Source: Ectopseudomonas composti (lineage in GTDB: Bacteria; Pseudomonadota; Gammaproteobacteria; Pseudomonadales; Pseudomonadaceae). From it: a DNA stretch of 64,000 nucleotides. Location of the stretch: NCBI RefSeq assembly GCF_900115475.1, contig NZ_FOWP01000002.1, positions 1-64,000 on the forward strand, read 5' to 3'. Positions 43,854-63,837 of this stretch are shown in pieces. Numbering within the stretch: the stretch's first letter is position 1; each line of letters begins with the position of its first letter. The notes beneath the pieces were generated by a model that saw only the letters and a list, made by a program, of their open reading frames with translations, did not search any database and was not told where the DNA came from. A program made the translations under genes and the position numbers.

Positions 43854-45563
43854 TTATCCGTTGATCACTTTTTTAAGAGCGTCGCGTGTGTCTCTCATTT
43901 TTGAAACTCTATGAGTTATTTCGTCTTCTTGCCCTATGACTACTAGTGCCTCTTTTATGGAGTCTATTGTTCTCTGGAAGACTTTTGTTGATTCCTCAAT
44001 GTTTTGCATAAACTTGTCTATTGCTTCGCAGTATTCGCGAGTGTATTTTTCTTTTTCGTTGAGGCCTAGATCCTTCTGTATTGTAAGTCTTACGGCCATT
44101 AACATTTGAAACCTGAATGGCTTGTATTTTTTGTCTATTCTGTTGTTGCGGAATAGCCACTCTAGTCTAAAGGAGGCGTAAGCGGCAGTGTAGTAGGGGT
44201 ACATTCTGTCGCTTTCTTTAAATATACTATGGCCAACCATGGGGATTAAATCCCCATAATGCCTGCCGACTTTGTTTGCCTCGTCAAGGAACATTGAAGC
44301 GTAAGACTTTAGTAGGCTTTCTTTTGTGATGATTCTTACTTTTTCAACTTCGATGTCTGCGTTGTATTGTCCGGCTCTGCGCTCATAAAATAGTTTCAGG
44401 TCGCCGTTTTTGGCTGACATGAATATCTCGATGTCTTTATGTATTGACTTGAGTGACCAAAACATTTCTTCATTGACTTCATTCTGCTGGTTTGAAGAAA
44501 TGATGACGCGGGCGGTAACTTCTTCGTCGTCAGTGCAGATTATTTTTATGGGAATTTGCACTGCGTCTGTCAGGTGGTTTGAGTTTTCTTGTAGAACGTG
44601 ACTGGTTTGGCAGCCATTTACAATTTGAAAGTCTTCCAATGTGAAGTTGTCGCCGACTCGCTGGAGATAGCGTGTAACGATAGTTATCCCGTTGTTGCGG
44701 ATAGGGAACTCGATATTTTGGCCAGATCGTAAGGTTTCCCCAATTTTTAAATTTATATCGGATTTGGGTTCGAAGTCTCGAATGTTGTCGAAGAAAAGAC
44801 TCTTTCGTACACTTCCGTCTGGCTCGGTTATTATTTTTAGGAATTCCACGGCGGATATTATCGCCAAGTAAGACTCTTTGACATTTGGTATGGGTGGTAA
44901 TGTTATGTTTTTCCCCACTGTGGCTGTCACGGAAATGGAATTTTTGCTGTAGGTGTATTTTCGCTGTACTTCTTTTGCACCTAAAGCATGCCATCCCACG
45001 GAGCCAAAGATGGCTTTCTCATCGAGGCGCTCTTTGCATTTCTCCAGTAGCTCGCACAGGATGGGGTCGTTTTTCCATACTCCGGTAGTGACGTAGTATA
45101 AAGATACGCTTGGTAGATTTTTTCGGCACTTATTTGAGTTATCTATGATGAGGTCAAATATTTTTCTTGCTTCGTTAATCTTTGGTATTAAATTGTGCTT
45201 TCTTTGATTTGCAAAGAAATCTTCGACAGCACTTGTGAATTTTAGTATGTCGCCGCCATCAAATTTTTCTGAGGTTTTGGCTTGGCAGAATAGAAATTCA
45301 ACTTCAATGGTGTTGCTGGCGTTAATTATGTCGCTGGCTTGTTCTTCATTGTCGACCAGTTTTTCATTGATAATTATTCCAATGCCGTCTATGCCGAATT
45401 CGCCTTCGCCAGTCGAGAGTATGTCGACATCGAAGGTGTCTGGAATTTTAGGGTATGCAATGATGTAGTTTGCGAATATTTCAAATTCGCTTTGTTTGTC
45501 TTTTGCTTTTATTTTTTGTGTTTCAATGAATTCTTGAAGAAGGTTTCCGATTACAGGATTCAT
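43854..45563 (-). CDS. AIPR family (abortive phage infection) protein
   Basis: A 569-residue protein of the AIPR family linked to abortive phage infection. The core block FPIRNNGITIVTRYLQRVGD with DFQIVNGCQTSHVLQEN is diagnostic. The N-terminal about 120 residues show a Mrr-like nuclease pattern: D59 in GIDGIGIII and Q94-x-K96 in FLFCQAKTS (QxK variant of PD-(D/E)XK). It would act in the cytoplasm, probably cutting nucleic acid when triggered, by inference. Strongly AT-rich, unlike the flanking core, so acquired. Its stop lies 5 bp from a host repeat. AAGGAAG is the ribosome site, and an intrinsic terminator sits just upstream of it. Confidence 0.85.
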   Translation of the reverse strand: MNPVIGNLLQEFIETQKIKAKDKQSEFEIFANYIIAYPKIPDTFDVDILSTGEGEFGIDGIGIIINEKLVDNEEQASDIINASNTIEVEFLFCQAKTSEKFDGGDILKFTSAVEDFFANQRKHNLIPKINEARKIFDLIIDNSNKCRKNLPSVSLYYVTTGVWKNDPILCELLEKCKERLDEKAIFGSVGWHALGAKEVQRKYTYSKNSISVTATVGKNITLPPIPNVKESYLAIISAVEFLKIITEPDGSVRKSLFFDNIRDFEPKSDINLKIGETLRSGQNIEFPIRNNGITIVTRYLQRVGDNFTLEDFQIVNGCQTSHVLQENSNHLTDAVQIPIKIICTDDEEVTARVIISSNQQNEVNEEMFWSLKSIHKDIEIFMSAKNGDLKLFYERRAGQYNADIEVEKVRIITKESLLKSYASMFLDEANKVGRHYGDLIPMVGHSIFKESDRMYPYYTAAYASFRLEWLFRNNRIDKKYKPFRFQMLMAVRLTIQKDLGLNEKEKYTREYCEAIDKFMQNIEESTKVFQRTIDSIKEALVVIGQEDEITHRVSKMRDTRDALKKVING

Positions 45564-45578
45564 TGTTCTTCCTTGTAA

Positions 45579-45604
45579 GAAAAAGGGGCAACTACGTTGC
45601 CCCT
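45579..45604 (-). terminator. Intrinsic terminator between tniQ and the AIPR gene
   Basis: On the minus strand a 9-bp perfect stem AGGGGCAAC / GTTGCCCCT with a 3-nt loop is followed by TTTTTCTT. It ends transcripts from the tns operon, but it lies only 16 nt before the AIPR start codon, i.e. inside that gene's 5' leader. Confidence 0.8.
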
Positions 45605-45625
45605 TCTTGTAAATGTGATGTTTTC

Positions 45626-45837
45626 AGTGGCCACTCATTTTCGTTAATTGGCGAAACCTTGATCCCGGAACTCAGGGCCTCTAGGTCGATTTCTCACTGG
45701 GGGCGAAACTTATTTTTCGCTATTTTGCGAATTTCTAACCGGTTTTTGCGCTAATTTGCGAAATGGGTTTTTAAGATTTTAAAAATTTGTGTTCGCAGTA
45801 ACAGAACGCTACTGTTTTTTACGGATGAGTGGCTACT
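45626..45837. repeat. Candidate transposon-end region with GCGAAA repeats
   Basis: Four GCGAA(A/T) motifs at 45651, 45713, 45727 and 45758 lie in related contexts (TTAATTGGCGAAAC, TATTTTGCGAATTT, CTAATTTGCGAAAT), and the block is flanked by a 13-bp inverted repeat (AGTGGCCACTCAT at 45626, ATGAGTGGCTACT at 45825; 12 of 13). This resembles an array of TnsB-binding sites, but spacing is irregular and no matching array was found on the other side. Confidence 0.4.
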
Positions 45838-47779
45838 TTATCTCGTTGATATCATTGCGGCGCACAAGGCAAACCGTAGAGATATAGCCGGCTTCATTAG
45901 AATGGAGAGGGGTAAGTTTTTTCATTCTTATAAGGTTGGCGGTGTGGCCAATGGGCGCGCCAAGAATTTCGTCTGCCTCGCACAGGCTAACGAATAGTTC
46001 GCGGTGCTCTTGGATGCGATGGAGTTGCTCTACCGGCACTAGGGTTTTGCTACCTATGCGAATGTACTTCAGATAGTCGCTTTGGATATATCTCCTGGAA
46101 AACGTCTGGGAAGACATGCCGAGCTGGGCTGAAAAGCACTTGAGTGAGATCATAGTCTTAAGCAGTGCTTGAGCATTTGTCACTGAACTGTTGGTGAAGT
46201 AGCGACCTTTCTTAAGATTCTTTGATCGGACGAGGTAGCCATTTCGTTCGAGATGCTTAAGGTCGTGCACGCCGACGCCCAGCGCGCGTGCCGTGTCTGT
46301 GCTTGATGTCGCTGCCTCTCCCGAGCGGCTAGAGCAGCCTGCCGGTTTCCTACCTGCATTTGATTTGTAGTGAGCGAGATTGTGTAGAGCGCTCCGTACC
46401 TCGCCGGTTACGTCATCACGGCGATAGATGGGGATCAAGCCTTCATCAAACCCATGCCGAGAAACGGGAGTTATTCCGAGGTGAAGGAGTTTTGCGGAAA
46501 GAGTTGTCCTAGGAAGATTCAGTTCCGTAGCAAGCTGACCTACGAAAGCAAATGTCGCCGAGAAGTGCTCTACCGCAGCCGCCAGGAGCAGCCTCCTGCC
46601 ATGAGCATCTTTCCTAGCGAAGGCGCTTATGAAACCCTGCGAGTAGGCACTGCGGACTGCATCTGGGTATACGCCCAATCGGACAGCAGCCTCATCAATG
46701 GAGAGGTATGTGCTGCAACCTTGGTTTGAAGGGCTCAAGGCGGGCGCTTGCATAACTGCCGTGCTGGGCGTGGTCGACTGCTCAAGCAGCATGCATAGCT
46801 TCTTGGCGGAGTACTTCCATCTAGCTTCCTTCCCCTTCACGCGCTGAACCAAATCACGAGTCAGAAATGATCTGAGCTTCGTCGGTGAGATCTTGAGGGC
46901 ATAAACCATTTCGTCCTGATAAAGTTGAAGTTCTGAGCAATTGCACGTTCCGCTAGCATCGGCGATATCGGTTTTGGAATTAAGCAAGTGGTGTACTTGG
47001 CTTTTGATCCATGAATCTTCCGAGGCTATCCAAGGAGCGAGAAGCGGCTTGGTCGGAAGACAAGGGTGAAGCAACATGGACGCTTCCAATAGCTCCTTGA
47101 ATACTTCTTCGTCACAATCGGCGACACGTGCAGCGTTCTCTACAATACTCTGCGCTTGCTCGCGGGCTGGGGCATACCGAAGGGCTTTCAGCGCAAAAAT
47201 GAATCGATCTAGAGCTGGCTGGTCTTGTCGCCTGAAAATTCTCAGAATTCGATGGGAACTATCTGCGCGCATGAAGGTTCTCGGCGTATTGCGTAGATCA
47301 AATCCGCACTGACAATAGGGGCCGGAAAGCTGGGTCCAGCGGATCTCGCGAGAGCATGCAGGGCACGCCGACTCTAGCTTGCAGGTATGGTAGGGGCAGC
47401 TTCTTAGCCAGTTGAGATCCAGTATCGATGGATGATTGTCTGCCCGGATGCAGTCTGGGCAAAAGCTATACGCATCAGTCCGAATATTGGCCGCTGGCAC
47501 GGCCAATCCCATGACCTCAACGGGGCTCTCACTAGTGCGCCCGAGCTGCTTGTAGAAGCTCGCGAGAAACTGTTTCCCATTGAGGTGTTCATGGCTGGCC
47601 AATTGGCCTACAAGTTTCGACTGCTGCATCTGCCAAGCGAGTGGTTGGCGCGACTCCTTTGCTCCGAAAGCTCTGGCGATTGCCGAAACCGAGCCAAAGC
47701 CATTCGCATATGCGGTACGCATCATTACGCTTCGGGGACTCTCTTCATCACGGGCGTGGGCGAGGTGGAAAATATTCAT
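45833..47779 (-). CDS. tniQ: TniQ/TnsD-family target-selection protein
   Basis: A 648-residue protein. The N-terminal TniQ domain has the usual MNIFHLAHARDEESPRSVMM opening and a zinc-ribbon series: FCPDCIRAD, LRSCPYHTCKLESACPACSREI and GPYCQCGFDL. The long C-terminal part holds several helix-turn-helix-like segments (LAYKSNAGRKPAG region, TDTARALGVGVHDLKHLERNGYL, FSAQLGMSSQTFSRRYI), as in TnsD proteins that bind a fixed attachment site. It would recruit TnsC to target DNA. Its start overlaps tnsC's stop by 4 bp (ATGA), last gene of the tns operon. Confidence 0.85.
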   Translation of the reverse strand: MNIFHLAHARDEESPRSVMMRTAYANGFGSVSAIARAFGAKESRQPLAWQMQQSKLVGQLASHEHLNGKQFLASFYKQLGRTSESPVEVMGLAVPAANIRTDAYSFCPDCIRADNHPSILDLNWLRSCPYHTCKLESACPACSREIRWTQLSGPYCQCGFDLRNTPRTFMRADSSHRILRIFRRQDQPALDRFIFALKALRYAPAREQAQSIVENAARVADCDEEVFKELLEASMLLHPCLPTKPLLAPWIASEDSWIKSQVHHLLNSKTDIADASGTCNCSELQLYQDEMVYALKISPTKLRSFLTRDLVQRVKGKEARWKYSAKKLCMLLEQSTTPSTAVMQAPALSPSNQGCSTYLSIDEAAVRLGVYPDAVRSAYSQGFISAFARKDAHGRRLLLAAAVEHFSATFAFVGQLATELNLPRTTLSAKLLHLGITPVSRHGFDEGLIPIYRRDDVTGEVRSALHNLAHYKSNAGRKPAGCSSRSGEAATSSTDTARALGVGVHDLKHLERNGYLVRSKNLKKGRYFTNSSVTNAQALLKTMISLKCFSAQLGMSSQTFSRRYIQSDYLKYIRIGSKTLVPVEQLHRIQEHRELFVSLCEADEILGAPIGHTANLIRMKKLTPLHSNEAGYISTVCLVRRNDINEIK

Positions 47780-48723
47780 TTTACTTTCCCCCCGGAGATG
47801 ATCTTAGTGAGCGACTCGTCGGTGAGACGAAAGGCATTGCCGCGATAAAGCGCGGTGGGAATGACAGAGAGATCAGCGGCGCTGATCAGGTCGATAAGCT
47901 CGAAGCTTCCGTTATTACGCAGCAGCGCGAGCCGGAAAGCATCGTTTAGGATCTGGCGAATTCCATTCATATTTCCGCCTGTCGAGAGATACATGGCTTT
48001 AAGCGGCTGCTCCGTGTTCAAGCTGATGCACTTATCGAACCCACCTATTTTCTTGATCGCCCCACCGAGTGCTCGCAGTGTTTTGCTGAATACTGAGGCT
48101 GGGTCAAGGGCGGCGTAACTGAAATGGTTCATCTTGTGCCGATACGGATACCTTCGGGAGAGCTGAGGGTGCGCGTTGATGATTTCTTCGCAGCTGGGAA
48201 TACCCTCTATCGCCACCGGGACCAATGTTTCGTTCAACAGGGTGCGCACCCAGTCGCATACCTGTTCACGGGATTTTTCTGCTCCCTTGCGAAGCAGGTT
48301 GTCGAATTCATCGAGAACGATGAGCTTGGTCTGGCAGGTCTGAAGAAGAGTGACAAGGCGCTTGAATAGCGCCGAGCTATTGCCGGTTACGTTGCTGGAT
48401 CCCAGTTCCTGCAACATCGACGTCGTCAGGCTCTTGGTCGTGGCACCTGCTTGTAGTGAACAGTAGAACGCCGGAACGATTTCAGTCGTACCTACTTCCG
48501 TGTTAACAATTCGCCTCCCACCGAACTGGCTCAATGCGATCTTGCAGGCCGTAGATTTACCGGTGCCAGGCTCTCCAGTCAGGAGCGCCGATGCCGGCTC
48601 TCCTCTTGTCGTCGTGGCTTCAATACTGCGCGCAATGCAGCTAAGCGCATCGGCATATTCAGGGTGGTTCACAACAAATTGTGCAAACTGCACCAGCTTG
48701 TCTTTGATCTCGTCGTTCATCAT
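47776..48723 (-). CDS. tnsC: TnsC/TniB-type AAA+ ATPase
   Basis: A 315-residue AAA+ regulator of transposition. Walker A is LLTGEPGTGKSTACK (residues 48-62) and Walker B KLIVLDEFDNLL (around 133-144); SGYP-type sensor region GEVAIEGIPSCEEIINAHPQLSRR-like follows with an arginine finger candidate. It would bind target DNA as ATP-dependent filaments and bridge TniQ with the transposase. The start ATG shares one base with the tnsB stop (TAATG), and the end overlaps tniQ, so the three are tightly coupled. Confidence 0.9.
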   Translation of the reverse strand: MMNDEIKDKLVQFAQFVVNHPEYADALSCIARSIEATTTRGEPASALLTGEPGTGKSTACKIALSQFGGRRIVNTEVGTTEIVPAFYCSLQAGATTKSLTTSMLQELGSSNVTGNSSALFKRLVTLLQTCQTKLIVLDEFDNLLRKGAEKSREQVCDWVRTLLNETLVPVAIEGIPSCEEIINAHPQLSRRYPYRHKMNHFSYAALDPASVFSKTLRALGGAIKKIGGFDKCISLNTEQPLKAMYLSTGGNMNGIRQILNDAFRLALLRNNGSFELIDLISAADLSVIPTALYRGNAFRLTDESLTKIISGGKVK

Positions 48724-50642
48724 TACTTCCTAGGTAGTTCGAAGGTTTCGTAGTCGTCATCGTCATCAAGCGTGTCGTTAATAAGTTCAAGATCGATTTC
48801 CTCAGCAAGTTCGATGTGTTCGTTGATGTGTTGAGCGTCATCACTCAAGTTATTAGGCGCGGTAATGTTCTGTGTCGGGTTATTTCGAACATCACGGAGA
48901 TGGGCACGTTTACGTCGCGCATTGTTCGCTGTGCTCTCGCTCAGGGCCTGCCAGATCCGGCGCAATGTCTGCCGAGCTTCTTCGCCTGTAAAGAGCTTTG
49001 CCTCTTCCTTAAGTTTTTTTTGTACCAGTTCGTGTTCATACATGGACAGGCCAAACTGATAGCTATGCACTCCATCTGCTTGATAGAACGTACCGCTACT
49101 CGGATCTCGCACGTAGACAGTACCGAGGTCCGTTCGGTCGTATAGAACTTCGACCTTTTGTGAGGTCTTCAAATTATTTTCAATGATGGGTAGCCCCGGA
49201 CCGGACCATGCCAAGTTCTTGAACCGAACTCGACCGCGATTGATAGTGCAGAAGTGAGTCGAAATACAGATAAAACTCAGAGCCTCAACTGTAAAAACTT
49301 TCGGCGGATTCATTTTGTCCATGTATCGCTCCCACAGCACGTTTGCTGGCAGATAGCGATGGCCGTGACTCGTTTTGTTGTAGTAGTTCAGAATCCAGTC
49401 ATCGACGATCGCGCGAAACTCATCTAGCGTCATTACCGCTTCGCCCTCGGAGTCATAGTCTCCCCGCATCGTCGTATTGGACTTCGTGGTTCCGTTCAAC
49501 CCATGAATGAGTTGTAGATTCAAGGTGCGGAAAAAACTCTCAACGTGGGGTTTTTGGTTAGGTTGGCCCTTCGAGCAGAAGCGAACGGTGAACCCAAGGC
49601 GGTTGGCCAGGGCAAGCAGGGAGGCGTTGTAGAACTCTGGCCCGTTATCTACGACTAGCTCTTCCATGAGCCCGGCTGGGGAGCCATCTTCGCGCATGCG
49701 CAACGCATGACTCAGCGCGCTTGCGGTTTTTTCGAAACAAGGCGGAGTGAACGAAAGGCTCCAGCCAATAACCGAACTGGTTAGTACTTCTAGCAATACG
49801 GTTAGGTAGGCACGTCCTATGTAGATGCCATCCTCACCAACTAGGTGAACGTCCACTTCCTGAGTGTCAGCCTCGACCCGGCTCAGTAGCCTTTCAGGGA
49901 CGTGGATCCCCTTGCCGAAGCCATGCTTTTTAGCTGCGGCTTTTGCACCCAGCCGGGCGCGATCCACGTCGTAGCTGTTCAGTGCTTCTAGCGCCCGGTA
50001 AAAGGTCGAAGGGGAGGGAATGTCCAGTTTGCTGTCAGAATGCAGGTTTAGCTCTTCCAAGTGAGCCACGAACAATTTGTAGACCATCAGTGCGGGCGGC
50101 TTCGTGGTCTTCAAATAGTGATGGCGTATGTAGTCCTGCATGACTTCCAGGGACTCTTGGCTCAACCGCTTGGGTCGCAGCTGCTTACTTGTCGCGTGAT
50201 CGACGAGTGCGAGCGTGTTTTTTCCGTTGGCTAGGAAGAGCTTCATTTGCTCGTACAACTTGGTGTACTTCGGCGGTTTCGGATCCCCCCGATCAGCGGC
50301 CATAATTGCAACCGCAGCCATGGTTTTTTTTCGTGGGAGCGAACCATGAAACATCTCTATCAGATTCTGGATGTAGTAGGACATGTGGTCGAGCTTGAGA
50401 CGCTGAGCTGCGTCTAGCCTCACAAGCTGTAGGGCCTTTTGTTGATCCATCAGGGCGCTGCTGATTGGTACGAAACGGCCTTGGCGGATGAGCTGATCCA
50501 CTTCTGTCTCAGGAAGGTACAAGGCGCCTTTATGGTTCACACCACGCATGAATATGCGTCCGTTGGCCTGATTGATGACCTCGACCAAATCCCCGTTCAG
50601 TTCGTACCGTGCCCCGATTTGTACAGTGTGCTGGTTCGGCAT
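48723..50642 (-). CDS. tnsB: TnsB-type DDE transposase
   Basis: A 639-residue Mu/Tn7-type transposase that would join transposon 3' ends to target DNA. The catalytic triad is seen as D259 (VEADTQEVD), D332 (VVDNGPEF) and E368 (KPHVESFF), a D,D(35)E spacing. N-terminal residues 65-250 hold helix-turn-helix DNA-binding domains, and a Mu-type C-terminal beta-barrel follows (NRGRVRFKNLAWSGPGL). The extreme C-terminus is very acidic (DDDDDYETFELP), as in TnsB tails that contact TnsC. It is 3 bp downstream of tnsA. Confidence 0.92.
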   Translation of the reverse strand: MPNQHTVQIGARYELNGDLVEVINQANGRIFMRGVNHKGALYLPETEVDQLIRQGRFVPISSALMDQQKALQLVRLDAAQRLKLDHMSYYIQNLIEMFHGSLPRKKTMAAVAIMAADRGDPKPPKYTKLYEQMKLFLANGKNTLALVDHATSKQLRPKRLSQESLEVMQDYIRHHYLKTTKPPALMVYKLFVAHLEELNLHSDSKLDIPSPSTFYRALEALNSYDVDRARLGAKAAAKKHGFGKGIHVPERLLSRVEADTQEVDVHLVGEDGIYIGRAYLTVLLEVLTSSVIGWSLSFTPPCFEKTASALSHALRMREDGSPAGLMEELVVDNGPEFYNASLLALANRLGFTVRFCSKGQPNQKPHVESFFRTLNLQLIHGLNGTTKSNTTMRGDYDSEGEAVMTLDEFRAIVDDWILNYYNKTSHGHRYLPANVLWERYMDKMNPPKVFTVEALSFICISTHFCTINRGRVRFKNLAWSGPGLPIIENNLKTSQKVEVLYDRTDLGTVYVRDPSSGTFYQADGVHSYQFGLSMYEHELVQKKLKEEAKLFTGEEARQTLRRIWQALSESTANNARRKRAHLRDVRNNPTQNITAPNNLSDDAQHINEHIELAEEIDLELINDTLDDDDDYETFELPRK

Positions 50643-50645
50643 GCT

Positions 50646-51296
50646 TTACCCCCAGAAAACCCGGCTGCTGGTAGAAATTGGTTTGTTCCAGTTACAGCGC
50701 AACTCCTGCTCAAAAAGCGCCGCGGACAGCGAGGCGGGAGATGGAGGTGAGGGCAACGCCAGAAGATCGCCAATTTGCATGGGGGCTTTCAGCATGCTGA
50801 GCTGATCGCGCAGATAGGCCCGCTCAAGCGGTGTCACGCCACGGGCCTGCGAGTAGGTCTTGATTAGGTTATTCAGCCGAGGCTGCTGGCGAATTTGGCT
50901 ATCAGTGAGCAGTTGGAAGCGCTGCCCGCGCTTATGGAGGAATTCTTCTGCCGCGCGATAAAGGGCTAGGTATTTGGGTTTGCGGTAGACGTTGTCTGGT
51001 TTGACCTCAACAAATGTGGTCGAGCCGTCCGAATAGAGAACCTCGAAGTCCGGTACATATGTACGAATCTTGCCCTCAACTTCCAGGACAAGCCGTTCGG
51101 GTTGCGGGCGATAGCTGATGACGTCCTTATCGTGCTCCCAGTGGAAGCATGCATCTGCTTCCAAGCGTACTTCACAGACAATGGATTCGCCGTTCTTTCG
51201 AGAGGGGAAAATGGTAGTTTGTTTGCCAAACTGGCTGCGTTTTATATTTCTTAGGGGCGAAGCTGTTTCGCCGCCATTAATCCGGAGTTTTTTCAT
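50646..51296 (-). CDS. tnsA: TnsA endonuclease
   Basis: A 216-residue TnsA homologue, the restriction-like nuclease that cuts transposon 5' ends and makes cut-and-paste transposition possible. Active-site residues are E46 (VRLEADACFHWE), D83 (YVPDFEVLYSDG) and E97-V-K99 (TTFVEVKPDN). The C-terminal part (SQARGVTPLERAYLRDQL) is a winged-helix-like contact region for TnsC. First gene of the operon tnsA-tnsB-tnsC-tniQ. Its ribosome site is weak (GAGCAAAC). Confidence 0.9.
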   Translation of the reverse strand: MKKLRINGGETASPLRNIKRSQFGKQTTIFPSRKNGESIVCEVRLEADACFHWEHDKDVISYRPQPERLVLEVEGKIRTYVPDFEVLYSDGSTTFVEVKPDNVYRKPKYLALYRAAEEFLHKRGQRFQLLTDSQIRQQPRLNNLIKTYSQARGVTPLERAYLRDQLSMLKAPMQIGDLLALPSPPSPASLSAALFEQELRCNWNKPISTSSRVFWG

Positions 51297-57459: not shown

Positions 57460-58485
57460 ATGCTTTATGAGCTGACTGTGCAGGCCCTAGTCGACAGTCG
57501 TCGAGTCCCTATCGAACGCCCGGATGCCCTAGGGATTAGCGAAAAGCATATTGAGGAGTTCTTGGCTTCTCACCTTGTTGAGTTGATTCCCGAAGAACAG
57601 CTCATGCTGCTGGCTCAAGAGCGGCAGTTCCAAGAAGAGGCCGATATTCTGGCACTGGACCGTAAAGGTACTCTTTTCATCTTCGAGCTGAAACGGTGGC
57701 AATCGAGTGCGGAGAACCTGCTCCAGGTCATGCGCTATGGCCAGAAATTTGGCCGTTACACCTACGCTCAGCTGGAGACGATGGTGCAGAGGCAGCAACG
57801 CTTGCAGGGGGCCTTGAGTGCTCGGCACCAAGAGTACTTTGGGCTTGAAGCGCCGCTGAAAGAGCAGGAGTTCAATCAAGACCAACGATTTGTTGTGGTA
57901 ACCAATGGTGTGGATCGTGACACCTTGGAGGCCATTCAGTACTGGTCGAAAAAAGGCGTCCACATCGACAGCTTGACCTACAAGCTTTACAGGGTGGGAG
58001 GTAAGCCATTCATTCAGTTCGACACGTACAACCCCGAACTGGATCTGTTGATGGAGGCTAACCCCGGCATCTTCATCGTCAACACCAACCGTACCTACAT
58101 GGACGATGCCTGGCGCGACATGCTCGGCGACGGCAAGAAAGGAAAAGCGGCGGCTTACTATGACCGTAAGAACGCGGTGCGGAAGATCGGAAAGGGATCG
58201 ACTGTGTTCCTGTATCACACAGGAGTTGGGGTAATTGCCAAAGGCAAGGCAACTGGTGGTGTACAGGCCACCGACTATGAAGGAGATGTGGACGAGCAGT
58301 TCTTTGTCCCGCTCCAGTTTGAGTGGTCGTTGCTAGATCCGGAAAGCTGGTCGTCACGGGCGCCCAAGGCCTACGAAATCAATGCATTGACTGGGGCTAG
58401 CAACCGTTTTCGCCAGACAGTGTTCAACGCCTCGGAAGAAATGCGGGATGCGATTCAGGGCGTGTGGGCTGCACGCAACGCCTAA
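57460..58485 (+). CDS. PD-(D/E)XK nuclease-like protein (NucS/DUF91-like)
   Basis: A 341-residue protein with a recognisable endonuclease core: E59-E60-A-D62 then 13 residues to E76-L-K78 (EEADILALDRKGTLFIFELKRW), the PD-(D/E)XK metal-binding pattern seen in NucS-like and DUF91 proteins. A mid-region QDQRFVVVTNGVDRDTLEAIQYWSKKGVHID forms a second alpha/beta unit, and the C-terminal part is beta-rich (GSTVFLYHTGVGVIAKGKATG). AAGGA precedes the ATG. The MBL-fold gene follows 122 bp downstream on the same strand. Likely a defence or DNA-repair nuclease, by inference. Confidence 0.75.
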   Translation: MLYELTVQALVDSRRVPIERPDALGISEKHIEEFLASHLVELIPEEQLMLLAQERQFQEEADILALDRKGTLFIFELKRWQSSAENLLQVMRYGQKFGRYTYAQLETMVQRQQRLQGALSARHQEYFGLEAPLKEQEFNQDQRFVVVTNGVDRDTLEAIQYWSKKGVHIDSLTYKLYRVGGKPFIQFDTYNPELDLLMEANPGIFIVNTNRTYMDDAWRDMLGDGKKGKAAAYYDRKNAVRKIGKGSTVFLYHTGVGVIAKGKATGGVQATDYEGDVDEQFFVPLQFEWSLLDPESWSSRAPKAYEINALTGASNRFRQTVFNASEEMRDAIQGVWAARNA

Positions 58486-58607
58486 TTCCAGTCTCTACAT
58501 GCCCTCTCGTTCAGGTGGATCTGCTTTTGAGATGAACTGGTCGAGTGGCGCTGAATTTAGTTGGCCGCAACAGATTTAAGGCTATTCAACATAAGGAAGA
58601 ACTACGC

Positions 58608-59813
58608 ATGGACGTCACCATGATTCAGCATCCCGTCGGACAAGGCGGGCTATTCAGCGGTCAGCTTCAGGTGGGAGACTCGGTTTTGCGCTGGGTCTAT
58701 GACTGTGGCTCCAACCAGCAAGATCGCCTCAACGAAGAGATTCTCGCTGTCGCAGCTCAAGGGACGATTGATCTGCTGTTTCTCTCCCACTTGGACAGTG
58801 ACCATGTCAGTGGGGTTGACCGTCTGCTAGCGGCAACCACGGTGGCTGAGGTGGTTCTTCCCTATCTGAGCGCCACTGAGTTTGCACTGATTGTGGCTCA
58901 GAATGCGGCGACTGGTGCGTTGTCTGGGACCTTTCTGGAGTTTGTGACTGATCCGGCGAAATGGCTAATTGCCCGTGGCGTTAGTACTGTGAGCTTCATT
59001 CATTCAGTCGAGGAAAATCAGCAACTGGCCGAGTGGCAATTACTGGAGTCGGATGGCGAGGGCCTATCAAGGGAAGATACTTCTCGCCTCAATGTGCGGT
59101 GGACTCAACCCGTCTCTAAACAGCGGTCCGTGAAGCATGGAACTGTGCAGCATTTTCCGACAGGAGCGGCGGTGGGCGTTGCTGCAAATGGTCAGGGGCT
59201 TGACTGGTTGCTTGTGCCCTACGCACATAAGCCTTCAGAAAGGCGGATGCAGCGCTTCGTCAATGAGTTGAAGGCTGTCTTCGGTAGAGCGTTGACGCGC
59301 CAGGCTATCGCACGGCATGCACGTAATGAGCAGGGGCGTGCCGTGCTGAGAGAGTGTTATGACAGGTTGTGGCTTGATCACAATAAGGTCTCTATGTCGC
59401 TTTACGCTGGGCCGCAGGCATCGCCTAGGATCATCAGCCAGCAACAGTCGTACAGTCATTGGCGAGTTGGGGCGCCAGCCCTCTCGCGGGCAGAGGTCGG
59501 CTGGCTAATGACAGGCGACGCTCACCTTGCTGCGGGGCGAAGGCTTTTCGCGCTGCTGAATTACTACCATCACCTGCGAGATCGTGTGAGCGTTCTGGTG
59601 TTGCCGCATCACGGTTCAGAGTTGAGCTTCCACCCCGCTCTCGTACCAGGCTTCTCGAATCTGAGCACCTGTATCGTGGCGGCCGGGCGTAATCAATACG
59701 GGCATCCACATTCCCATGTCTACGAGCAGGTGCGGACTTATTTGGGTGTCCAAGGTTGGCATCATGTCAGTGAGTGTCCTTCTAGCGGTTTTGGTGTGCG
59801 CGCCGTGCTATGA
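58608..59813 (+). CDS. Metallo-beta-lactamase-fold hydrolase (ComEC-like)
   Basis: A 401-residue cytosolic MBL-fold protein. The metal motif is LFLSHLDSDHVSGVDRL (H61-x-D63-x-D65-H66), followed by a later MTGDAHLAAG aspartate and LPHHGSELSFHP histidines, the layout of the ComEC-type MBL domain without membrane part. Such proteins hydrolyse phosphodiesters or act in island-encoded conflict systems. AAGGAAG selects ATG at 58608. Located between the nuclease and the GTPase-like gene, all on the plus strand. Confidence 0.85.
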   Translation: MDVTMIQHPVGQGGLFSGQLQVGDSVLRWVYDCGSNQQDRLNEEILAVAAQGTIDLLFLSHLDSDHVSGVDRLLAATTVAEVVLPYLSATEFALIVAQNAATGALSGTFLEFVTDPAKWLIARGVSTVSFIHSVEENQQLAEWQLLESDGEGLSREDTSRLNVRWTQPVSKQRSVKHGTVQHFPTGAAVGVAANGQGLDWLLVPYAHKPSERRMQRFVNELKAVFGRALTRQAIARHARNEQGRAVLRECYDRLWLDHNKVSMSLYAGPQASPRIISQQQSYSHWRVGAPALSRAEVGWLMTGDAHLAAGRRLFALLNYYHHLRDRVSVLVLPHHGSELSFHPALVPGFSNLSTCIVAAGRNQYGHPHSHVYEQVRTYLGVQGWHHVSECPSSGFGVRAVL

Positions 59814-60019: not shown

Positions 60020-60772
60020 TTGGCGAAGGAAAAAGAAGGAATGATTGCCGGTATTTTTAAAGGTGTTCTTGGCGGGCTTATAAAGGATCTCCTCAAAGAC
60101 GCGGCCAAGAGAACGCCGAGCTTCGTGAAGAGCCTGAAATCTTGGTGGTACGGAAAAACTATTGCGATAATAGGACCTACTGCATCTGGCAAAAACAGCA
60201 TGTTTAGCCGCATCAAGAAGGAGCAGCCTCCGGCCGAGTATATTCAGACGCGGGGAGCCGACGAGGTTGGGGACTTCAAGTTCTCCTGGAGGTTGGGTGA
60301 TGGAAGTCCTGTTGAGTTTAACTGCAAGAAATCCATCAATGTAGGTGGGGAGCATGATGAGCGGGACCGAGTTTGGGCTCAAGCATGTGCTGGCGCCGAC
60401 GTGATTTTCTACTTGGTTGATATCAAGCAATTGAAAGAGGAGCCAAGTAGTACGCTGGATAGAATTAGGGGCGACTTTAGATGGATGGCAGAGAAATTCC
60501 GCGATTTCAAGGCGGGAGTGGTTGTGCAGATTCTCATGAACAAGGTGGACGAACTAGATTTTACTGGGAGTCTTGAGGATCAGAGGCAGCATATCCTTGA
60601 CGTACTCAAGGATGAGTCAGATCGGATTCATGATATCGCCAGGAAAATTCTTGGTGCACGGTCCGCGTCGATTGTAGGTATATCACCGATTAGCATGATC
60701 GATGACTACCTTTTTGATGTTTTTTTCGTCGATGTACTGAGCACGGTTTTTAGTAAGGTTAATCAGAAATGA
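60020..60772 (+). CDS. GTPase-like P-loop protein with amphipathic N-terminus
   Basis: A 250-residue protein. The P-loop is IGPTASGKNSMF (residues 51-62): it has GxxxxGK but Asn then Ser where Ser/Thr normally follows, an odd variant. The G4 motif NKVD (174-177) and a long DVIFYLVDIKQL strand support a TRAFAC-like GTPase; the G3 DxxG is not clear. Residues 8-30 (MIAGIFKGVLGGLIKDLLKDAA) could form a membrane-binding helix. TTG at 60020 is chosen for its GGAG at ideal distance; ATG at 60041 is an alternative. Its stop overlaps the next start (ATGA). Confidence 0.75.
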   Translation: MAKEKEGMIAGIFKGVLGGLIKDLLKDAAKRTPSFVKSLKSWWYGKTIAIIGPTASGKNSMFSRIKKEQPPAEYIQTRGADEVGDFKFSWRLGDGSPVEFNCKKSINVGGEHDERDRVWAQACAGADVIFYLVDIKQLKEEPSSTLDRIRGDFRWMAEKFRDFKAGVVVQILMNKVDELDFTGSLEDQRQHILDVLKDESDRIHDIARKILGARSASIVGISPISMIDDYLFDVFFVDVLSTVFSKVNQK

Positions 60773-61299
60773 GAAGCTTATGGCTTTTACCGGATACCGA
60801 GCAGTCGGGGGTAATCCAAGCTTTGGAAGGGGCTGATATTGGGCCAGTTCATGAGCGAATAGATCTCAACTTGTTACCGCCGTGTTTTGTTCTCGGTATT
60901 CCAGAGTCTGTGCTGCGTGAGAATCCTAGCGATAAATTTGCATATGCACAGTATGCCAGGCTTGCTGATGGTATGAGTGTCTTCGCCTGCTCGATGCGCT
61001 CTGGGCGTGATAGGGGGGGGAGAACTGTAATGCTCACGAATCTCCAATATTTGGACGGTAGTGAAAATGCAATATTTCCTCCAGAGTTGAATTGTAATGC
61101 TGGTGCTGAAATTTTCGGCTACATGTCAAATTTTGAGTCTATGGATGATGGCTCTAAGCGAAACATTGAATTGATGCTTAAAGCTGTTCGTTTGGGGGCT
61201 CGTGCTAGTACATTTTCCAGCGAAAAATTGCTAAAGGCGGTTAACAAACCAGACTGGATGCCTTTAGGAAAAAAGTCTCAAGCAAGCTCGTGGCAATAG
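60769..61299 (+). CDS. Unknown partner of the GTPase-like protein; possible frameshifted long form
   Basis: A 176-residue protein starting MRSLWLLPDTEQSGVIQALE, coupled to the GTPase gene by ATGA. I do not recognise a domain; it has mixed strands and helices (PPCFVLGIPESVLREN, RTVMLTNLQYLDGSENAIFP). In-frame translation ends ...MPLGKKSQASSWQ. At the GKK codons lies the heptamer A_AAA_AAG with a stem-loop 5 nt later; a -1 shift would replace the last seven residues by 22 others ending in a membrane helix (stop at 61343, 191 residues). The 0-frame end is otherwise unremarkable. Confidence 0.7.
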   Translation: MRSLWLLPDTEQSGVIQALEGADIGPVHERIDLNLLPPCFVLGIPESVLRENPSDKFAYAQYARLADGMSVFACSMRSGRDRGGRTVMLTNLQYLDGSENAIFPPELNCNAGAEIFGYMSNFESMDDGSKRNIELMLKAVRLGARASTFSSEKLLKAVNKPDWMPLGKKSQASSWQ

Positions 61300-61343
61300 T
61301 TGTCGTCGGGCTTGCTGTCGTAATTGCATGTCTACTAATTTAG
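61269..61343 (+). promoter_or_regulatory. Candidate programmed -1 ribosomal frameshift signal and -1 frame tail
   Basis: Slippery heptamer A_AAA_AAG at 61269-61275, in the 0 frame of the upstream gene as required; 5-nt spacer; stem AGCAAGCTCG (61281-61290) / CGGGCTTGCT (61307-61316), 10 bp with one G-U, 16-nt loop. The -1 frame then encodes VSSK followed by LVAIVVVGLAVVIACLLI and stops at 61343. Confidence 0.6.
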
Positions 61344-61893: not shown

Positions 61894-63837
61894 CTACTGC
61901 GGATCCGCCTCAACCATTAGATCGCCCTGGCGAACTGGCACCGGCTTTAGAAAGCTAGCGAGTTGCTCTTGCTGTTCGAGCAGGAATGGAGCGTCTTGGA
62001 CTCTAGAGTAAAGGTTCAGAAGGCGCTTTTCGGCTCGGGTGAGGATGGTGTCGTAGAGCATGGGAATGATCTTGACCTCCTCGCCATGGGAGGTCGGATC
62101 ATCTTCACCTTGTTCGATGATACTGCCGAGAATGAAGCCATCCACCCGTGTGTGCTGACGAATATGTCCCTTCGCTTTCAGTTCTTTCACGTACTTCCAA
62201 ACCTGATCCTTTTCACGGGAGCCGAGCGGCAGTTCGGTAGTTTTGAGGTCCACGATCACGACGTGCGCCGCACCATTCTCGTTGTAGTCCTCGTCGTAGG
62301 ACGATCTGGCATAGAAGCTGACGCTGCAATCTGGCAGGGCGACAAAGTCCGGGCGGTTGCGGCTGCCCTTACCCTGGCTGTCGCCGAACAGTTGGCGGAT
62401 GACGGAGGTCATGCCCTTGTTGGAGGTGAATTCGATGGACTCGAACTGGGCACCGAACATCCATAAGCCGCGCTCGAACAACGGTTGCAATTCGTGCACT
62501 TCGTCGATCCCGGCGACCTGAATCTTGGTGCGAAGCTCTCCGATGAGTTTCAGGCGATTCTGGATCTCGTCGAGCACGAGCTTGGCCATGCTGACCGTCC
62601 ATTCGGAGAGGATGGTGTGCAGGGTGTCGTAATCGTTGGGCTCGCATTTATGCAAGAGATCGAGCAGGCCATAGCGTGACTTCGCCTTTTCCAGCTTGGC
62701 CAGGATCGTGGAGAGCTGAACAATCTCCTGTTCGCCAAAGTTGGGGCAGGTTTCTACCACTTCGTCAATGAAGGCTTCGACGCGGTCCTTGCTGATGGGG
62801 GAGAGGGTGTTGACGGTATTGCCGACACGCTCAAAAACCGCTGCACGCTTGGCTTCGCGCTCACTTTCACCACTGCCGTGAATGATCTGCCGGATGCGGT
62901 CCTGAACAGCTTCGCGGGTGATGCGCCAGGCCTGGTTGTCGTCCTTGAATCCGCTCCAGTCAGGGGTGACTGCGTCATGCTGGTTCAGGAAGTCGGCCTG
63001 GACGATGAAGGTGAAGCGCTTGGCTTCGGACGTGCGGCCATCGAGCACGCGCTCGTAGTCGCTGCGACTCCATTTGCAGTCGCCAACGGCACGGTTCTGC
63101 ACCCACCAGGCTATGCCATGCTGCTTGGTGGTTCGATCTGCCTTTTTGGTATCGATATGCAGGATGGTCACTTTCCCTAGATCAGGGATTTCAATCTCCT
63201 CGCTGGACAGCAACTCAGGGATGTCCCTGAAGGTGATTGGGCTTCCATTGATCGAAACCGTGAACGCTGGGTTCGCCAGAAAGCGACTGCCGATCAGCTC
63301 GCGGGCTTGCTCTTCGCTAAACCTCAGAGGAGGGATGCTGCCGTTACCAATGATCTCAGTGCCGTGACCTTTGACGCCCTCAGCCGTGAAGGATATTTCT
63401 TCCAGCACCAGTGGCTCGGTCAGCGTTCTATGGACACGGCAGACGAACTCCTGGCCATTCTTGCGTGAAGTGATCAGATATTCATCGGCAAAGCAGAAAC
63501 TGGCGAACCGTCCCTTGCCATTCTTACCAAATACCGGACGAAGCAAGCCTTCAACACCTTGAGGAGGTGCGGCGACTGCACCTTGTACCGAGAGTCGGTT
63601 ATAGGCAATGGTGCGCCATATGTGCTGGAACTCGTCACGGGTCATCCCGTGGCCGTTGTCTTTGATCCTAAATTGTCGACCTGAATCAGCTGCCGGCCAG
63701 GCAATCTCCACCTGGGTGGCGTAGGCATCCCAGCAGTTGGCGACCAGCTCGACGATTGCGGTTGCTGGGTCGGTGACGATGGCACCCGCGTAGCTTTCGA
63801 GAAAGCGGGCATCGTAGAGAAGAGATCGTTGCTCCAT
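61894..63837 (-). CDS. GHKL ATPase fused to a PD-(D/E)XK-like nuclease domain
   Basis: A 647-residue protein. N-terminal GHKL (gyrase/Hsp90/MutL-type) ATPase: N box AIVELVANCWDAY (28-40), G1 box DNGHGM (60-65) and GKNGKGRFASF (104-114). A helical middle follows (about 340-480), then a C-terminal nuclease-like block RPDFVALPDCSVSFY ... HVVIVDLKTTELPLGS, the D-(D/E)xK pattern, as in Shedu-like and related enzymes. MORC/GHKL-nuclease fusions often occur in defence islands. Start ATG at 63837. Probably co-transcribed with the broken frame that follows. Confidence 0.85.
   Translation of the reverse strand: MEQRSLLYDARFLESYAGAIVTDPATAIVELVANCWDAYATQVEIAWPAADSGRQFRIKDNGHGMTRDEFQHIWRTIAYNRLSVQGAVAAPPQGVEGLLRPVFGKNGKGRFASFCFADEYLITSRKNGQEFVCRVHRTLTEPLVLEEISFTAEGVKGHGTEIIGNGSIPPLRFSEEQARELIGSRFLANPAFTVSINGSPITFRDIPELLSSEEIEIPDLGKVTILHIDTKKADRTTKQHGIAWWVQNRAVGDCKWSRSDYERVLDGRTSEAKRFTFIVQADFLNQHDAVTPDWSGFKDDNQAWRITREAVQDRIRQIIHGSGESEREAKRAAVFERVGNTVNTLSPISKDRVEAFIDEVVETCPNFGEQEIVQLSTILAKLEKAKSRYGLLDLLHKCEPNDYDTLHTILSEWTVSMAKLVLDEIQNRLKLIGELRTKIQVAGIDEVHELQPLFERGLWMFGAQFESIEFTSNKGMTSVIRQLFGDSQGKGSRNRPDFVALPDCSVSFYARSSYDEDYNENGAAHVVIVDLKTTELPLGSREKDQVWKYVKELKAKGHIRQHTRVDGFILGSIIEQGEDDPTSHGEEVKIIPMLYDTILTRAEKRLLNLYSRVQDAPFLLEQQEQLASFLKPVPVRQGDLMVEADPQ

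Follow-up and report, generated by a model that had tools for sequence, protein, structure and literature searches.

A candidate programmed -1 frameshift that could add a membrane tail to the partner of a GTPase-like protein in Ectopseudomonas composti

Introduction

In a stretch of 64,000 nucleotides of Ectopseudomonas composti DNA (contig NZ_FOWP01000002.1, positions 1 to 64,000), referred to here as the window and used for all coordinates, the second gene of a two-gene unit ends shortly after a run of adenines, and a hydrophobic segment is encoded just beyond in the -1 frame. The question raised by this locus is whether ribosomes are programmed to change frame at this point, so that one gene would yield both a soluble and a membrane-anchored protein, as a preliminary description made from the DNA letters had proposed, or whether the gene has lost its end by mutation. 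A precedent for the signal is found in Escherichia coli dnaX, in which the heptamer A_AAA_AAG is followed by a 3' hairpin and both codons are read by tRNA-Lys (PMC3711429, PMC5009743; the papers cited here and below are represented by excerpts). Candidate frameshifts have been put at about 0.03 to 0.10% of bacterial genes and, by gene number, belong mostly to mobile elements (PMC4066793).

Results

The gene pair and its products

The first gene of the pair, on the plus strand at 60020..60772, starts with TTG and encodes a GTPase-like protein of 250 residues. The second, the partner gene, lies on the same strand at 60769..61299, starts with ATG and encodes a frame-0 product of 176 residues without a known family. 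The two ORFs share 4 nt, ATGA, in which the partner ORF starts and the GTPase-like ORF stops, an arrangement that hints at a complex of the two proteins. The GC content of the pair, 0.44-0.49, is lower than that of the immediate flanks, about 0.53-0.57, fitting a recent acquisition.

The term GTPase, carried over from the preliminary description, applies only loosely. Profile searches with the first protein returned sub-threshold matches to Gtr1_RagA (E 0.02), small_GTP (E 0.041) and DO-GTPase2 (E 0.045), and VGGE and NKVD motifs are recognised by eye. Comparison with PDB sequences gave a P-loop match to ABC transporters only (E 0.012). The P-loop itself, at 60173-60196, reads by eye as GPTASGKN-S with Asn in place of Ser/Thr, and may constitute a degenerate or unusual nucleotide-binding site. 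Membership of the DO-GTPase family (PF19993, DO-GTPase2) was rejected, the score being 13.8 bits against a cut-off of 27. The first 45 residues could form a basic amphipathic helix (moment 0.35-0.55); this is what can be said for the membrane-binding N-terminus envisaged earlier, to which we attach little weight.

For the partner, searches of Pfam (to E 10), PADLOC, NCBIfam and PHROGs returned no family, and its best match among PDB sequences has an E-value of 0.58. Assignment to GAP1 was rejected on the same Pfam result and because the genome gave no match to GAP1-N2 (PF20013). Structure prediction for the two proteins without an alignment gave mean pLDDT values of 38.6 and 40.4.

Homologues were sought in genome sets that overlap one another and in which each tally counts the window's own genome. 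Beyond the window, none was found for the partner among 398 genomes of the genus and 190 of the class, nor for the GTPase-like protein in sets of 398 genus, 369 class and 144 'relatives' genomes. In 390 order genomes, the latter gave three weak matches (E ≤ 0.01) besides the window, two of which, ABC-transporter-like and sensor-kinase-like, were judged unrelated from their translations. Scans of plasmids, phages and viral contigs found no homologue of either protein, fragment queries against the viral contigs having been included for the GTPase-like protein. A collection of genome contigs yielded 46 pattern matches for the partner and 593 for a 94-aa fragment of the GTPase-like protein, none of them confirmed, and the DNA of the pair was not found in E. 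coli genomes or plasmids. Distant homologues may exist, since single-sequence pattern scans catch close relatives only.

The slippery site and the -1 tail

The partner ORF ends in the codons GGA AAA AAG TCT CAA GCA AGC TCG TGG CAA TAG. As the preliminary description had stated, these contain A_AAA_AAG in the correct phase close to the end of the gene: the heptamer occupies 61269..61275 on the plus strand, where GGA AAA AAG is read as G-K-K. In frame 0, seven residues (SQASSWQ) and TAG follow at 61276..61299. A shift into the -1 frame gives GTC TCA AGC AAG CTC ... ATT TAG, that is VSSKLVAIVVVGLAVVIACLLI from 61275, with a stop at 61341-61343. This tail of 22 residues (61275..61343, plus strand) consists of VSSK and 18 hydrophobic residues encoded by 61287-61340, the Kyte-Doolittle mean of the 18 being 3.41, so that the fusion product has the C-terminus KK-VSSK-LVAIVVVGLAVVIACLLI. 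The claim of a hydrophobic helix followed directly by a stop is borne out, and the product lengths of 176 and 191 residues given previously were reproduced from the frame-0 and the -1 reading. Judged by eye, lysines ahead of the helix (KK..K) and an absence of residues beyond it are compatible with a tail anchor.

The -1 frame is closed upstream by a stop at 61242, and between this stop and the heptamer it contains no ATG, GTG or TTG but only a CTG at 61254. The whole tail could therefore hardly be reached without a shift. That shift might in principle take place during transcription, as slippage at the A-run would generate mRNAs with an extra A and hence the tailed form, possibly alongside ribosomal slippage. 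The run is of a suitable kind and the product would be identical. However, the run at 61269-61274 has only six A residues, where PMC3711429 gives more than 7 A for such realignment, for which reason programmed transcriptional realignment was rejected, and slippage of this kind has no need of the hairpin described below. We consider transcriptional slippage very improbable.

The downstream hairpin

The heptamer is followed by a 5-nt spacer, TCTCA (61276..61280, plus strand), and then by a putative 3' stimulatory hairpin at 61281..61316. The preliminary description placed a 10-bp stem-loop here. Its spacing was right and its size too small: beyond the 10-bp stem (arms 61281-61290 and 61307-61316) and a single bulged base, 6 further pairs follow, making 16 bp in all, and the whole is closed by a UAG triloop which is itself the frame-0 stop codon. 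The predicted folding energy is -21.8 kcal/mol with a z-score of -5.07, and none of 200 dinucleotide shuffles was as good. The hairpin was retained when 131 nt of context were folded, the stretch as a whole being less exceptional (z -2.43, with 5/200 shuffles as good). A stable 3' structure 5-9 nt past the heptamer is expected of signals of the X_XXY_YYZ type, spacers of 5-9 nt being the concern of many studies (PMC5009743), and here 16 bp with a dG of -21.8 begin after 5 nt.

Upstream features are weaker. Folding of 61226-61270 gives a hairpin at 61228..61270 (plus strand) that ends at the heptamer, with a dG of -12.6 and a z-score of -2.45, 2 of 200 shuffles being equally good. A well-placed Shine-Dalgarno-like stimulator is not evident upstream of the heptamer, which counts against a programmed shift: a 3-bp GGA match (-3.1 kcal/mol) has the customary spacing, and an AGGA (-4.2 kcal/mol) touches the heptamer. 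Such a stimulator does not accompany every signal of this type, and frameshifting in cso2 is a case without an apparent one (PMC5009743). A search of Rfam gave one sub-threshold match, which was uninformative.

A hairpin that spans the frame-0 stop codon at the end of a two-gene unit could also be a structure of the mRNA 3'-end or one concerned with mRNA stability, and its position next to a slippery heptamer a coincidence; the tail would then be unmade, or made by re-initiation at a GTG, of which the -1 frame has one at 61290. Against this, the hairpin is absent from the terminator scan and is not followed by a T-run, and re-initiation at 61290 would yield merely a hydrophobic peptide of 17 residues. 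In a search of the whole genome, the 99 bases 61245-61343 had no second copy, and the structure is therefore not a repeat element. Together with the very small probability, documented below, that heptamer, hairpin and helix would occur jointly by chance, these observations make coincidence, in our view, a highly unlikely account.

Chance controls within the genome

The frequency of each element was estimated from about 1.57 Mb of stretches, or 1.63 Mb including the window, of the 5.39-Mb genome. The 4,424 mechanically defined ORFs of at least 100 residues in the 1.63 Mb, many of them spurious, contain 27 in-frame A_AAA_AAR sites. The site in the partner gene has the strongest downstream structure of these and is the only one with a tail value of at least 2.2, the next best being 1.21 among the 25 sites listed. 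For hairpins, 606 of 39,477 random 45-nt windows reach a dG of -21.8 or below at any spacing, and 139 of the 39,477 do so with a first pair located 4-9 nt from their start; at the latter spacing the counts are 31/20,938 in the GC bin of the hairpin (0.6) and 1/4,570 in the 0.5 bin. For tails, the -1 frame was read from 7 codons before the stop in ORFs of at least 150 residues, and an 18-residue mean of at least 3.0 was found in 3 of 2,666, among which the partner ORF is necessarily counted. These genome controls are rough and are not independent tests of one another. All the sequence elements named in the preliminary description are nevertheless present and jointly exceed chance by far, and a simple coincidence of heptamer, hairpin and helix is strongly disfavoured.

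The main rival to programmed frameshifting is a recent one-base deletion in the A-run. An ancestral gene with seven A residues would have encoded the tail in frame, and loss of one A, or an error in the assembly, would have left the truncated gene now seen. Heptamer and out-of-frame helix do not separate mutation from programme, because deletion from A7 yields both in one step; A-runs are moreover prone to indels, the differences are confined to the last 7 codons, and no relative was found that would exclude such an event. PMC10924467, a reminder that accident or error can also create a hydrophobic end by frameshift, describes a bacterial protein with a frameshift-derived end rich in leucine and isoleucine, for which, in the excerpt, its authors could not distinguish a genuine shift from a sequencing error.

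It is the hairpin that separates the two readings, because the tail peptide does not force an RNA structure of this strength. This was established by redrawing synonymous codons for the tail peptide, 20,000 times each with genome-wide and with local codon usage, in two runs. At a spacing of 4-9 nt, none of the 20,000 redraws under either codon usage reached -21.8 kcal/mol in either run. At any spacing, this energy was reached in one run by 11 (genome usage) and 4 (local usage) per 20,000, and a dG of -18 or below at spacing 4-9 was attained in the other by 23 and 11 per 20,000, respectively. As the threshold was taken from the observed value, these counts are strong evidence and not an exact probability. 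A recent mutation leaves the 16-bp hairpin at ideal spacing unexplained (0/20,000 redraws; 139/39,477 random windows), and the rest of the partner ORF and the upstream neighbour are both open. We regard the mutation as unlikely, though less so than transcriptional slippage or coincidence.

Decoding machinery and other sites in the genome

ARAGORN identified two distinct tRNA-Lys genes, both with a UUU anticodon, in a scan of stretches within which the 56 tRNA places of the whole genome fall, as judged by comparing coordinates by eye. A tRNA-Lys set restricted to UUU suits A_AAA_AAG, at which the sole tRNA-Lys of E. coli forms its stronger pairing in the -1 frame (PMC5009743). Pseudomonas species are reported to show more -1 frameshifting than E. 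coli, at reporters that in the excerpts do not carry A_AAA_AAG (PMC9481147).

Two further genes of the same genome, both of kinds that employ such shifts in other bacteria, were inspected for comparable signals. Its dnaX contains no in-frame X_XXY_YYZ heptamer. For gene pairs such as that of the cobaltochelatase, use of A_AAA_AAR has been reported in Pseudomonas (PMC5009743); the stretches read of the pair in this genome contain no A_AAA_AAR. The small and medium cobaltochelatase subunits match two open frames with overlapping coordinates. The absence of sites from dnaX and from the cobaltochelatase pair counts against the programmed-frameshift reading.

The neighbourhood

Immediately upstream of the pair, ending 206 nt before the GTPase-like ORF, 58545-59813 encodes a protein of metallo-beta-lactamase fold whose partial matches are ComEC-, LmuA- and 6A-MBL-like. 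It is preceded by a candidate defence nuclease at 57460-58485, which matches PDC-S11 in PADLOC (best E 9.4e-23) and has a stretch resembling NucS_C below the threshold. On the minus strand at 61894-63837 lies a BbrUII/HgiDII-like restriction protein with a HATPase domain, scoring 97 bits against an NCBIfam cut-off of 550. A Tn7-like set at 43854-51296 (minus strand) comprises TnsA-like, TnsB-like, TniB/TnsC-like and TniQ proteins, followed by an AbiU/AIPR protein, and this transposon may carry a defence gene. Since candidate nuclease, MBL-fold, restriction, Tns/TniQ-like and AbiU genes surround the pair, a defence role for it is plausible.

Discussion

Overall, the sequence of the locus argues that a genuine -1 programmed ribosomal frameshift shortly before the partner gene stops is the best explanation, and we hold this to be likely. 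The signal would be of the dnaX/IS3 type. A ribosome at A_AAA_AAG, its P and A sites both occupied by tRNA-Lys(UUU), would be held by the 16-bp hairpin 5 nt downstream. A fraction of ribosomes would move one base backwards and extend the chain by 22 residues with a transmembrane helix at the end, which would make a tail-anchored protein of 191 residues. The remaining ribosomes would stop 7 codons on, at the UAG in the hairpin loop, and release the soluble protein of 176 residues. A set rate of slippage would fix the ratio of anchored to soluble protein and, once the tails had inserted, might bring some of the GTPase and its partner to the inner membrane, perhaps as a defence against phages. 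We advance the further proposal, in which the -1 frameshift sets the ratio of soluble to tail-anchored partner of the GTPase, and translation so decides the membrane share of the complex, possibly a phage-defence module, as a tentative one. Of the preliminary description, the frameshift and the membrane tail survive as the best reading, and the word GTPase should be used with reserve. Confidence in the frameshift reading is limited chiefly because no homologue was found that would show conservation.

Comparison with the excerpts on E. coli dnaX reveals the same heptamer, a 3' hairpin and a tRNA-Lys for both codons. The two differ in outcome and in stimulators: the dnaX shift leads to a shorter product and is aided by an upstream Shine-Dalgarno-like stimulator (PMC3711429), whereas the shift in the partner gene would lengthen the product by a membrane helix, with no convincing stimulator of that type apparent upstream. 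Transposases of the IS3 family (IS911, IS3) resemble it in using A_AAA_AAG-type heptamers with a stem-loop or pseudoknot, and in a product that is not shortened (PMC4066793); the partner gene, in contrast, is not a transposase and would gain only a membrane tail of 22 residues. In the DO-GTPase/GAP1 conflict systems, as in the present pair, a GTPase gene is followed by a partner gene; DO-GTPases have a conserved Walker B Glu, for which the VGGE motif seen by eye in the GTPase-like protein is a counterpart, and many GAP1 proteins of the N2 type carry C-terminal TM segments (PMC7159879). However, the GTPase-like protein falls under the DO-GTPase2 cut-off (13.8 versus 27 bits), and the partner has no GAP1 profile match and, at 176 residues, seems too small to accommodate the three GAP1 domains.

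A limited literature search, drawing on excerpts of papers that include PMC5009743, PMC3711429 and PMC4066793, found no bacterial cellular gene in which a -1 shift adds a membrane anchor. The mechanism is already known, and its use to anchor a bacterial cellular protein is apparently new. If the reading is correct, it describes a simple means by which one gene can supply a soluble and a membrane-bound form of its product, and short -1 tails, which annotation confined to frame 0 misses, would be worth scanning for hydrophobic helices.
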